From the IMG/VR virus record IMGVR_UViG_3300024308_000058, positions 1 to 25,197 of that record: a stretch of 25,197 nt of DNA; one strand, 5' to 3'. The notes beneath the pieces were generated by a model. That model was given only the letters and a program-made list of their open reading frames with translations, was not told where the DNA came from and ran no database searches. The translations under genes and the position numbers were made by a program. Numbering within the stretch: position 1 is the first letter of the stretch; each line of letters begins with the position of its first letter. Below are positions 43-16,584 of this stretch, in pieces. The DNA is from a virus.

Positions 43-118
<76 letters not shown>

Positions 119-399
119 TCGAATCAGGCACTTAGGATCATCCGCAGTGCCTTCTTCGTCAAGCCAGCGCCGCCCGGTGACCGCTCGGTGACCGTTTGTC
201 TTACGGATTGTCTTACGGATAGACCAACTGAACCACCTACGTTGTTCGTATCGCACTCCAATGAGATTGGTTTGGCACTTGCGCTGCGCATGATTAATTG
301 GAACAATCCCGCGTCTTGCTTAACGGAAGTGCTTGCGGCACTTGCAGGCTGTCACGAGTTGAGAGACATTGGCAGTGTGACACCCCACCCACCCCACTT
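119..399. other. non-coding gap after tRNA; candidate att/arm region
   Basis: No convincing gene is seen between the tRNA and the first micro-ORF. The open frames here have no homology I recognise and partly read through the tRNA. The region holds two back-to-back tandem duplications: an 11-base unit CGGTGACCG(C/T)T twice at 175-196, and a perfect 12-base unit TGTCTTACGGAT twice at 197-220. Tandem short repeats beside a tRNA 3' end are what integrase arm-type or excisionase sites look like, but that role is inference. No strong promoter could be assigned for the micro-ORF transcript. The best guess, TTGGCA at 272 with an AT-rich patch near 293, is poor. Confidence 0.5.
175..220. repeat. two adjacent tandem duplications (11-mer x2, 12-mer x2)
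   Basis: The unit CGGTGACCG occurs at 175-183 and 186-194 and is itself nearly palindromic. It is followed by two perfect abutting copies of TGTCTTACGGAT at 197-208 and 209-220. This is direct sequence observation; a role as integrase arm sites is inferred only from position. Confidence 0.8.
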
Positions 400-410
400 A
401 GGAGTGTGCC

Positions 411-437
411 ATGCGTGAAGTTGTCGGCGGTTTCTAA
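411..437 (+). CDS. micro-ORF 1, 8-aa peptide MREVVGGF
   Basis: This is an eight-codon ORF ending in TAA, with a perfect AGGAG Shine-Dalgarno at 400-404 and a 6-base spacer. A second copy lies 98 bases downstream. The two 27-base ORFs differ at only two positions, the third bases of codon 2 (Arg CGT/CGC) and codon 5 (Val GTC/GTT), so the peptide is identical. Such synonymous-only change, with a conserved ribosome site, suggests that translation is selected. I do not recognise the peptide. The MRE start and VVGG core recall the two ends of double-glycine bacteriocin leaders with the middle missing, but this is only a resemblance. It could instead be a regulatory upstream ORF or part of a small RNA. 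Confidence 0.5.
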   Translation: MREVVGGF

Positions 438-438
438 T

Positions 439-461
439 CAGCTCTGGATCTACTAGATCCA
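439..461. repeat. small perfect inverted repeat between the micro-ORFs
   Basis: Just after the stop of micro-ORF 1 there is GGATCT ACT AGATCC, a 6-bp perfect stem with a 3-base loop. No T-run follows, so it is not a classical terminator. It may protect or process the transcript between the two micro-ORFs. Confidence 0.5.
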
Positions 462-508
462 TCAACTGCACATTGGTAATGAAAGACCAACCCACACAGG
501 AGTGTGCC

Positions 509-535
509 ATGCGCGAAGTTGTTGGCGGTTTCTAA
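509..535 (+). CDS. micro-ORF 2, 8-aa peptide MREVVGGF (duplicate)
   Basis: This is the second copy of the eight-codon ORF, with the same AGGAG at 498-502, the same 6-base spacer and the same TAA stop, encoding the same peptide through two synonymous third-base changes. Similarity extends a few bases on each side (CAC..AGGAGTGTGCC before, TAA..AGCT after) and then stops, so the duplicated unit is roughly 55 bases. A strong intrinsic terminator follows 20 bases after the stop, which makes the pair look like a dedicated short transcript rather than the leader of the next gene. Confidence 0.5.
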   Translation: MREVVGGF

Positions 536-555
536 CTAGCTTTCCACTCGACAAC

Positions 556-587
556 TTCCGCCCGCTGATTGCGGGCGGAATTATTTT
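556..587 (+). terminator. strong Rho-independent terminator
   Basis: A perfect 10-bp stem, TTCCGCCCGC (556-565) with GCGGGCGGAA (571-580), has a 5-base loop TGATT and the tail TTATTTT. It ends the micro-ORF transcript and insulates the DUF4760 gene that starts 24 bases later. Confidence 0.93.
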
Positions 588-611: not shown

Positions 612-1241
612 ATGTTGTCGTTTGCGGCGGAAGTGCTGAACTCACCAGGATTTAACAGTATCGTTTTGCTTGTAGGCGTATTTGTAGCCCTGCGTCAGCT
701 CAGGATCGCCGAGGACGGGATCAAGTCCCAGCTTCTTGCCGTCAAGCAACAGATTGATGCTTCGAAGTCGGGGCAAGATGATTCGCTTCGCGAATCAAGG
801 TTGATCGCGAAGCGTAAAGAGACCGCTCGTCTTCTTCTTGAAAGCCGGGGAGATGAAAAGCTACAGCGAGGCTGCCGTACTGTCGACCGTTACTACAATA
901 GCTCTGGTGTAAACATCAGAGATCTAGTAAGCATGGACTACAAGCCTCCAAGAGCAGTCGACGAGATTGACGCGGATTACGATAAGCGCTGCGTAGAAAC
1001 CTTGTCCGACCGAAACGATATCCTCTACCTTCTTAACCACTTTGAAAATGTGGCTATCTGCGTTGAGCGAGATATTTATTGTCGGGATATGATCGTAGAC
1101 GCATGGCGAAAGATCATGATCGACGGTTTCCGGCATTCGCGTGCGCTAATTGATGCCATGAGGACGAAGTCGGCTAATCCAAAGATTTGGGAAAAGTTCC
1201 AGCAGTTCACGCAAGAACTTGAGCGTGAGTCTCTTGGCTGA
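612..1241 (+). CDS. DUF4760-like membrane-anchored protein (moron)
   Basis: This 209-aa protein has an N-terminal hydrophobic segment (about residues 14-29), then a charged coiled-coil-like stretch (30-75), then a C-terminal domain whose block around residues 136-182 (ILYLLNHFENVAI, then DAWRKIM) looks like DUF4760. That family is frequent in prophages and integrative elements and has no established function. Likely topology is an inner-membrane anchor with a cytoplasmic domain. The start is supported by an AGGGG-rich ribosome site. The gene runs opposite to the adjacent operon, follows its own terminator and has a lower GC feel than its neighbours, all typical of a moron expressed in the lysogen. 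A superinfection-exclusion role is inference. Confidence 0.75.
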   Translation: MLSFAAEVLNSPGFNSIVLLVGVFVALRQLRIAEDGIKSQLLAVKQQIDASKSGQDDSLRESRLIAKRKETARLLLESRGDEKLQRGCRTVDRYYNSSGVNIRDLVSMDYKPPRAVDEIDADYDKRCVETLSDRNDILYLLNHFENVAICVERDIYCRDMIVDAWRKIMIDGFRHSRALIDAMRTKSANPKIWEKFQQFTQELERESLG

Positions 1242-2436: not shown

Positions 2437-2759
2437 GCTCCGCCCTCGAGCAGCATCTTGGGATCGATGTGCCACCCTGCTTCACGAGCAGCACGCAGCC
2501 GTAGCTCGTTCGCATCGAACTCGTCCAGCTGCAGCGTTGTGATCGCGCCCTCGACCTGATGCGGCTGCAGGGGGCGGGACGTCCGGCCGAATGCGCGCCA
2601 AACGCTGAATACTTGGCAGCCCCAGGCGGGCGCAAGGCAGGCAAGCTGCTTGCCGTGCTCCCGGCAGTGGCGGCGGATTATGTCGCGCGCTGTTACGTGC
2701 GCGGGCGCCGGGCCGCGAAGAGCAGCGCGGATAGATGCGGCGTTGCGTCCTGGGCTCAT
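2433..2759 (-). CDS. hypothetical phage protein
   Basis: The protein is 108 aa, starting at the ATG at 2759 that overlaps the methyltransferase stop (ATGA). A longer open frame upstream lies antisense in the methyltransferase frame set and is rejected. It is arginine-rich at the N-terminus and helical, with three cysteines (RRHCREHGKQLACLAPAWGC) that are not in a classical finger spacing. Family not recognised. It is tightly packed in the leftward early operon. Confidence 0.65.
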   Translation of the reverse strand: MSPGRNAASIRAALRGPAPAHVTARDIIRRHCREHGKQLACLAPAWGCQVFSVWRAFGRTSRPLQPHQVEGAITTLQLDEFDANELRLRAAREAGWHIDPKMLLEGGA

Positions 2760-3937
2760 GCGACGTCTCCAAACGAAAGGCCAGGTTGGGCGACCCGGAT
2801 GCGCGCCTCGGCGATCGCGGCGTAGACGGGATCCTGCTCGATGCCGACGAACTGGAAGCCTTCGAGTACTGCGGCCTTGCCGGTGCTGCCGCTTCCCATG
2901 AAAGGATCCAGCACCAGGCCGCCGGCAGGGGTCACCAAGCGGCACAGGTAGCGCATGAGATCGGTCGGCTTGACGGTCGGGTGGTGGTTCCGGTTCCGCG
3001 CCCGCCAGTCGGCAGTCTCGCGATCGCGCATCGTCGCGCCAGCGGAGACCGTAGGATCCGGGCCAGCATCTAGGCCGTCGTTGCGGTCTTCACGGCTGGC
3101 TTTGGCGCAGTAGAAGAACCTCGCCGCACTGCCGGCATCGATACGGCGAGCACCTGGCCGCATTTTGAAACCAACGGCTCCTTCATTCGCGCTGTTCCGG
3201 CTGGCTTCGCCATTTCGGGGCAACGGGCCGCCCTCATAGACGGTCGAGAATCTGGCACTCCCTTTGTCGTTGCTGAGGGTGGCCTTCTGCCCAGGCGCTG
3301 CAGGAAAGGCGGCGAGAACCTCCGCGCTGCCGTCATGGATCAGATTGGCAGGCCAGCGGCCAAGCTCTTCAGCCTTGGCAACGCTTTGCTCTCCACGAGC
3401 ATGGGCAGCTGAGAGTGCATCCGGATCATGCTTCCAAGGCCGGTCCCATCCATCAGCTGTTGAGCTTATGCGACCGCCGCCAAGGGCGTCGCCGCCTGCA
3501 TCTATCCGGCATTGATCCACGTGCAGGCCGCCCGTGCCGTGCTGCTGCCAGGTAGCGGCAACCGTGCCGACCAGCGGCTTGCGGGCGACCGTGATCGGTT
3601 CGAGCGCGGGCTTCAGCGCAGTACCGCCCCAGGGGCCGTTGTGCGACTTCGGGAAGCCGCTGCCGTAGACCCACGCGATCATGTCGCGGATCTCGAAGCC
3701 GGCGTCCTCGATGCGCACGGCCATGCGGTGCTGCGTGCGGGTACCGGCGAAGGCCAGCAGGTGGCCGCCAGGCTTCAACACGCGCAGGCACTCGGCCCAT
3801 ATCTCGGTGCTGGGCACGTCGTAATCCCAGCGCTTGCCCATGAACGACAGGCCGTAGGGTGGATCGGTCACGATGGCGTCGACCGAGTTGTCGGCCATCC
3901 CGCGCATCACTTCGAGGCAGTCTCCGACGTGGATCAT
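2756..3937 (-). CDS. site-specific DNA methyltransferase, DPPY (N4/N6) class
   Basis: The 393-aa protein has DPPYG at residues 25-29 (catalytic motif IV) and the SAM-binding motif DPFMGSGSTG near 344-353. The catalytic-before-SAM motif order is that of the beta-class DNA methylases (DNA_methylase N4/N6 family). It also shows HHPTVKP before the SAM motif, typical of the family. A central insert of about 180 residues may hold the target recognition domain. The ATG at 3937 gives an ATGA overlap with the previous gene; 23 further upstream codons in frame are rejected as antisense. No cognate restriction enzyme is adjacent, so it is probably an orphan methylase that protects phage DNA from host restriction. 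Target sequence unknown. Confidence 0.92.
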   Translation of the reverse strand: MIHVGDCLEVMRGMADNSVDAIVTDPPYGLSFMGKRWDYDVPSTEIWAECLRVLKPGGHLLAFAGTRTQHRMAVRIEDAGFEIRDMIAWVYGSGFPKSHNGPWGGTALKPALEPITVARKPLVGTVAATWQQHGTGGLHVDQCRIDAGGDALGGGRISSTADGWDRPWKHDPDALSAAHARGEQSVAKAEELGRWPANLIHDGSAEVLAAFPAAPGQKATLSNDKGSARFSTVYEGGPLPRNGEASRNSANEGAVGFKMRPGARRIDAGSAARFFYCAKASREDRNDGLDAGPDPTVSAGATMRDRETADWRARNRNHHPTVKPTDLMRYLCRLVTPAGGLVLDPFMGSGSTGKAAVLEGFQFVGIEQDPVYAAIAEARIRVAQPGLSFGDVA

Positions 3938-4083
3938 GCGGCCACCCTCCGCCAGCACCAGCGTAGCCCGGCGCGCGCGGCGCGGCATGCGCGGCTGATC
4001 GCCCACAGGGTGGCGATGCCGGCCAGGAACCCGACCATGGCGAACACGTGGACCATTGCAGCGGTGAGCAGCTGGTCAGCCAT
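3934..4083 (-). CDS. small membrane protein
   Basis: A 49-aa ORF starting MADQLL has one clear hydrophobic segment (about residues 9-28, VHVFAMVGFLAGIATLWAI) followed by an arginine-rich tail (RACRAARAGLRWCWRRVAA). That pattern fits a single-span inner-membrane protein with a cytoplasmic positive tail. It overlaps the gene before it by eight bases and the methyltransferase by four, the best evidence that it is real. Function unknown. Confidence 0.65.
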   Translation of the reverse strand: MADQLLTAAMVHVFAMVGFLAGIATLWAISRACRAARAGLRWCWRRVAA

Positions 4084-16499: not shown

Positions 16500-16500
16500 G
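16451..16500 (+). terminator. two-tier hairpin, terminator-like
   Basis: The outer stem CCGCAGG (16451-16457)/CCTGCGG (16481-16487) encloses the inner stem CTGGAC (16459-16464)/GTCCAG (16472-16477). The tail TTCGTCGTTTCTG is only moderately T-rich. It directly precedes the tRNA-like gene, so it may also be a processing structure. Confidence 0.45.
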
Positions 16501-16584
16501 GGGCGGGTTGCCCGATGGGCGCGGGGCCGGACTGTAAATTCGGCGTCTGTGACTCGCGTGGTTCGACTCCACGTCGCCCCAACA
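16500..16584 (+). tRNA. tRNA-Tyr-like (GTA anticodon), phage-borne, non-canonical
   Basis: Acceptor GGGGCGG pairs with TCGCCCC (16574-16580). The anticodon stem is CCGGA/TTCGG with loop CTGTAAA. The long variable arm (16544-16556) closes GTC/GAC as in type II tRNA-Tyr. The T arm CGTGG/CCACG has loop TTCGACT. Oddities: one extra base between acceptor and D stem, so position 8 reads G rather than the near-universal T, and the 3' end is AACA with no encoded CCA. It could be a functional phage tRNA or a decaying copy. Confidence 0.7.

Follow-up and report, generated by a model that had tools for sequence, protein, structure and literature searches.

Two ORFs of only eight codons lie side by side near the left end of a viral genome fragment, and the locus raises the question of whether they are genes and, if so, what their product does. 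The window, that is the whole stretch of DNA analysed, comprises 25,197 nt of an IMG/VR virus record (IMGVR_UViG_3300024308_000058). An earlier note on this DNA had described twin ORFs encoding MREVVGGF with the same AGGAG, spacer and stop, a similarity extending over about 55 bases and a 10-bp terminator with a T-tail behind them; our analysis confirms each of these features (Table 1).

The micro-ORF pair precedes a terminator and a DUF4760 gene

Both micro-ORFs are preceded by AGGAG with a 6-nt spacer and end in TAA. Their starts are 98 nt apart and the only differences between the copies are at two third codon positions (CGT/CGC and GTC/GTT). The surrounding 55-nt repeat units are 87% identical; the repeat core AGGAGTGTGCCATGCGNGAAGTTGT occurs twice in the window and in none of 100 shuffled sequences with three mismatches permitted. 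The terminator, which has a T-rich tail, begins 20 nt past the stop of the second micro-ORF. A gene overlooked in the earlier note starts 31 nt past the terminator stem and encodes a DUF4760 protein, which matches PF15956 with 74.1 bits (gathering score 25). It is followed by an AlpA-type regulator gene on the opposite strand. A scan of the window with Rfam, as a source of an RNA-family explanation, found tRNA alone. An open frame overlapping the second micro-ORF was rejected; it is not conserved because GCG TGA closes it in the Stenotrophomonas geniculata relative.

The tRNA-Met gene at the left end is likely to mark the attachment (att) end of a prophage. Block AATTGGAACAATCCCGCGTCTTGCTT is a possible promoter or regulatory site; no sigma-70 consensus was found at this block. 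Elsewhere in the window the prophage carries an N6/N4 DNA methyltransferase gene (2756–4006, minus strand) and a tRNA-Tyr gene (16500–16581).

Table 1. Features of the window and micropeptides of related loci. Positions of ORFs include the stop codon.
Feature	Location	Strand	Evidence or context
tRNA-Met (CAT) gene, left end	window 43–118	+	ARAGORN, Rfam; same tRNA in L003 and L001
Block AATTGGAACAATCCCGCGTCTTGCTT	window 296–321	+	invariant in alignment with S. geniculata; surroundings diverge, including just upstream
Repeat unit copy 1, 55 nt	window 389–443	+	repeat alignment
Shine-Dalgarno (SD) AGGAG, micro-ORF 1	window 400–404	+	sequence
Micro-ORF 1, MREVVGGF-TAA	window 411–437	+	sequence; homologue L003:403–429
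Repeat unit copy 2, 55 nt	window 487–541	+	repeat alignment
SD AGGAG, micro-ORF 2	window 498–502	+	sequence
Micro-ORF 2, MREVVGGF-TAA	window 509–535	+	sequence; homologue L003:500–526
Intrinsic terminator, 10-bp stem, 5-nt loop, tail TTATTTTA	window 556–580	+	conserved in L003
DUF4760 protein, 209 aa	window 612–1241	+	PF15956, E = 1.6e-20
MKDTDGGL	L015, beside tRNA-Phe		upstream of DUF4760
MNDTAGGL	L021		upstream of DUF4760
MREVIGGL	L076, L078		upstream of DUF4760
MRDVIDGL	L071		upstream of DUF4760
MKKMYDEFDGF	L065, P2-like coliphage		upstream of DUF4760
MKKVFDEFDGF	L066, Citrobacter phage		upstream of DUF4760
MAIKREPLLVAVVVREEYEGI	L019, Pseudomonas phage D14E		upstream of DUF4760
MSMNVMTKREEYEGL	L082		upstream of DUF4760
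MTIAMANFVTNRVTDENDGY	L085		upstream of DUF4760
MIQQNDFGF	L023		upstream of DUF4760
Orphan MKKRYDEFDGF	L145 about 3083–3118; L294 2484–2519		conserved leader and terminator, phage-plasmids

The same layout of two peptide copies, terminator and DUF4760 is found in S. geniculata (L003) and in IMG/VR contig L001; since both copies are present in each, the duplication predates the split between the window and S. geniculata. Between the window and S. geniculata the region separating the copies and much of the leader have diverged and the DUF4760 proteins are 83% identical, whereas the peptide codons show synonymous changes only (CGC to CGT in copy 2); the stop of copy 1 is TAA in the window and TGA in S. 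geniculata. A distant prophage (L293), whose DUF4760 is 52% identical to that of the window, encodes MREVVGGF before this gene as AGA GAA GTC GTA GGC GGT TTC. The element was found in one of the 91 Stenotrophomonas genomes searched. Two sets of candidate loci were discarded: the IMG/VR matches to AGGAGTGTGCCATGCG in L016–L018 are coding sequence of an unrelated protein, and the L002 match lies inside the ORF of an Acidipropionibacterium gene.

A family of micropeptides is encoded upstream of DUF4760

DUF4760 homologues were collected by protein homology and their upstream regions were examined for SD-led micro-ORFs. The order SD-led micro-ORF (about 8–31 codons), terminator, DUF4760 recurs at loci from Lysobacterales, other Gammaproteobacteria, P2-like coliphages, a Pseudomonas phage and IMG/VR contigs. 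The peptides vary in length and at the N-terminus and have in common an acidic-Gly-hydrophobic C-terminus (EFDGF, EYEGL, VIGGL) no more than about four residues from the stop. Most relatives have a single peptide copy, duplication being the exception, and three different stop codons are used. The more divergent peptides, MKLNTGVGDG and MATIWGIHKF among them, were chosen by eye and are of lower certainty. The micro-ORF is unannotated at most family loci, as the earlier note had anticipated in suggesting that gene finders overlook them.

Of the 51 loci tabulated, 37 have an intrinsic terminator by automatic detection; the median distance from the peptide stop to the terminator is 19 nt (range 7–57), and the DUF4760 start mostly lies 30–107 nt past that stop. 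Four loci (L050, L053, L060 and L061) depart from this layout: their peptide ORF runs into the start of DUF4760, and no terminator was detected. The space past the terminator hardly accommodates a promoter, so DUF4760 would have to be transcribed mostly by read-through, which would leave the peptide in excess of DUF4760.

A strict rule (ATG, SD of at least 4 nt, 6–36 codons, C-terminal [DEGN]G[FYLI]) identified micro-ORFs in 22 of 61 non-redundant DUF4760 upstream regions. The corresponding controls gave 0 or 1 per replicate in 20 shuffles, 0/61 on the reverse strand and 0/57 downstream. Scanning IMG/VR for the motif alone returned 40 matches, 25 in frame with a short ORF and 15 not; DUF4760 lies directly downstream of 21 of the in-frame matches and of none of the out-of-frame matches. 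With a looser C-terminal pattern there were 130 matches, 69 of them SD-led ORFs of 8–25 codons that encode 41 distinct peptides and come in many cases from related contigs, compared with 34 matches and no SD-led short ORF for a permuted control pattern. The pattern of the window's own subfamily, MR[ED]V[VI]xG[FL], was found in seven contigs and DUF4760 is the next gene in all seven.

That selection acts on the peptide, as the earlier note proposed, is well supported by these sequence comparisons: the changes are synonymous, the identical peptide occurs in other codons and many homologues are conserved as amino acids. The pN/pS over ten ORFs of the window subfamily is 0.22, a value biased downward because three of the ORFs came via a pattern that limits amino-acid change. 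The other suggestions of the earlier note fared less well. Selection on ribosome loading alone, as in a decoy leader, leaves the conserved C-terminal residues unexplained. Export as a double-glycine peptide fails because the family as a whole does not share GG (compare EFDGF, EYEGL and ENDGY); the motif ends the peptide, whereas in the exported class GG follows a leader of about 15–30 residues and is itself followed by a cargo. A self-contained, separately terminated RNA is insufficient as the full account, since the unit consists of micro-ORF(s), terminator and DUF4760.

DUF4760 is a predicted helical membrane protein

All 36 relatives of the window DUF4760 match PF15956. The two models made with AlphaFold2 are confident and helical throughout (mean pLDDT 94.5 for the window protein and 93.8 for the other model); in them, a single long N-terminal helix with a hydrophobic stretch is predicted to precede a helical domain. 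The protein is thus a putative membrane protein, the anchoring being read from the hydrophobic stretch. A comparison of the fold with solved structures (PDB) gave no match at a significant E-value. Plant EDS1/PAD4 helical domains were the best Foldseek matches to the DUF4760 of L112 (prob up to 0.98, TM about 0.55) and were set aside because E = 0.3. PADLOC, which has no model for DUF4760, assigned the 36 proteins to no family, and the DUF4760 PHROG is listed as of unknown function. Its neighbour in coliphages is the portal gene, and the content of this region varies. Another DUF4760 subfamily exists, many members of which seem to lack an upstream peptide.

Related peptides occur without DUF4760

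Six enterobacterial phage-plasmids of 46–49 kb (E. coli, E. fergusonii and Klebsiella) encode MKKRYDEFDGF with leader and terminator and without DUF4760; the entire 49-kb record of one of them, pC161661-2, was checked and DUF4760 is absent. T4-like Karamvirus phages carry MFSLRKFDEEDFEFFDEFDGF and a terminator before gene 47. In Enterobacter phage PG7 (L285) this 21-residue MFSLRKFDEEDFEFFDEFDGF (1564–1629) and its terminator lie between a-gt.2 and gene 47, and the peptide is annotated as hypothetical only (PG7_053). In lambdoid prophages of the Proteus/Providencia type, MLDEFDGF and peptides like it are encoded after the antiterminator Q. Micro-ORFs with xDEFDGF are located just after Q, between hairpins, in L153, L206, L168, L149, L147 and the L286 region; at loci of the L149 type it overlaps what looks like the start of another gene (MMNLMVSKYPTRAD...). 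DUF4760 was not detected in a 76-kb phage (L138) with the orphan MKSAGMYDEFDGF, nor in a 231-kb phage (L132) with the orphan MRDDYEGF and a terminator. Some single orphan matches, for example MIHDDYEGF before a structural gene, may be due to chance.

Discussion

We tentatively favour the reading, at somewhat less than even probability, that the micro-ORFs are real genes for an eight-residue peptide which is the partner of DUF4760 and acts on it in trans like an antitoxin. Action in trans is suggested by the orphans, by the expected excess over DUF4760 and by the lack of an antiterminator. The peptide, produced in large excess over a DUF4760 that relies on read-through, would bind DUF4760 and hold it inactive; if the supply of peptide stopped, DUF4760 would be released. 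Such a unit could serve lysogenic exclusion or abortive infection, and the orphan peptides of other phages would be antidotes. The general form of this proposal, in which peptides of 8–31 residues recognised by their acidic-Gly-hydrophobic C-terminus neutralise DUF4760 as a prophage membrane effector and the orphans of lytic phages and phage-plasmids are antidotes, is more doubtful. The overlapping ORFs without terminator (L050, L053, L060 and L061) also fit coupling in cis, and the many DUF4760 proteins of the second subfamily without peptide count against a partnership. In some lambdoid late regions orphans occur so often that their target may be something other than DUF4760.

The main rival is a cis-acting leader peptide: when some condition, for example phage takeover, prevails, the C-terminal residues of the nascent chain would delay the ribosome on the stop codon and so alter read-through or, in the overlapping variants, DUF4760 translation. 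Antibiotic-resistance genes are known to have leader peptides of comparable length. By sequence, the locus has the SD-led short ORF and intrinsic terminator upstream of a gene that characterise an attenuator, and the position of the motif, at most about four residues before the stop, in peptides of variable length and N-terminus, the constrained stop-to-terminator distance and the existence of overlapping variants all suit a leader. However, a simple duplex test on 36 loci found no conserved antiterminator (mean z of 0.08 for the 5′ arm and 0.12 for the 3′ arm), orphan peptides exist without DUF4760 nearby, three stop codons are in use and the tabulated peptides contain no run of codons for one regulated amino acid. 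The window does have complementarity between ORF and terminator region (417–426 or 515–524 with 549–558), but this is compatible with the terminator and does not replace it. The perfect pairing of 417–426 with 549–558 was rejected as an antiterminator, as the minimum-energy fold of a relative contains both it and the terminator; no similar conserved pairing was found across the relatives. A leader peptide is possible, at well below an even chance. The second rival, which we regard as unlikely, is that the free acidic-aromatic C-terminus lets the peptide bind a putative host protein. The peptide would serve phages in several ways and DUF4760 would be just one linked gene, perhaps activated by the same target or protecting from it. 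The occurrence of DEFDGF/DDYEGF C-termini near T4-like gene 47, after lambdoid Q and in phage-plasmids is in its favour, as is the yield of SD-led short ORFs in the looser scan (69/130 against 0/34 for the permuted control); against it, REVVGGF, the form found in Stenotrophomonas, has no overall acidic character. The C-terminus may resemble SSB C-terminal tails; a literature search on SSB-tail mimicry found nothing specific.

An RNA element, in which the repeats form a small RNA (an RsmA/CsrA sponge or an RNA antitoxin) with an incidental reading frame, would account for the AGGA within possible short hairpins in both copies, the strong terminator and the ToxIN-like layout. We consider it very improbable: what relatives conserve is the amino-acid sequence rather than the RNA, MREVVGGF is written in different codons, the stop changes from TAA to TGA in S. 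geniculata and the motif occurs in frame. Chance duplication or a decaying, functionless gene remnant, to which the shortness of the ORFs might point, has a negligible probability; the control counts and the conservation in unrelated prophages refute it unless the counts prove to be artefacts.

The arrangement can be compared with several known systems. Arbitrium (AimP) is a short phage peptide in which C-terminal residues are important; the peptides described here are too short for an export signal and are paired with DUF4760 instead of an AimR-like TPR receptor. The lambda bar minigenes are ultra-short SD-led phage ORFs. These and the axe-txe minigene have a few codons and act through translation, whereas the present ORFs have 8–31 codons and a conserved C-terminal motif. 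The axe-txe minigene is described as an ultra-short SD-led ORF of a toxin-antitoxin system (PMC8708949). Attenuators and arrest peptides (TnaC, the MsrD leader, mgtC uORFs) share the short ORF, terminator and regulated gene, as well as conserved C-terminal residues beside the stop, but the present family lacks a conserved antiterminator and its peptide genes also occur without the downstream gene. In ToxIN, a repeated short antitoxin unit is followed by a terminator and then the toxin gene (PMC8860590), and phages can carry an antitoxin mimic of a type III toxin-antitoxin system (PMC3475682). The terminator between short unit and downstream gene is alike; unlike type III systems, the DUF4760-linked product is conserved as peptide and not as RNA, is usually present in one copy and accompanies a predicted all-helical membrane protein with no significant PDB match instead of a ToxN-like RNase.

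Literature searches, subscription papers and preprints excepted, found no report of a DUF4760-linked micropeptide, hardly any mention of DUF4760 and no mention of DEFDGF in connection with phages. The locus represents a conserved gene family whose entire product can be as small as eight amino acids, under the normal size limit of annotation; the DUF4760-linked module is present in 280 of 5,426 complete E. coli genomes. The micropeptide is a first, testable candidate partner for DUF4760, and its C-terminal motif provides a sequence signature for finding further loci. A tiny peptide common to prophages and lytic phages suggests a role in phage–phage or phage–host conflict. If our reading of the peptide as an antitoxin-like partner of DUF4760 is true, the unit would be a type of toxin-antitoxin system with extremely short peptide antitoxins, and with a matching counter-defence in phages.
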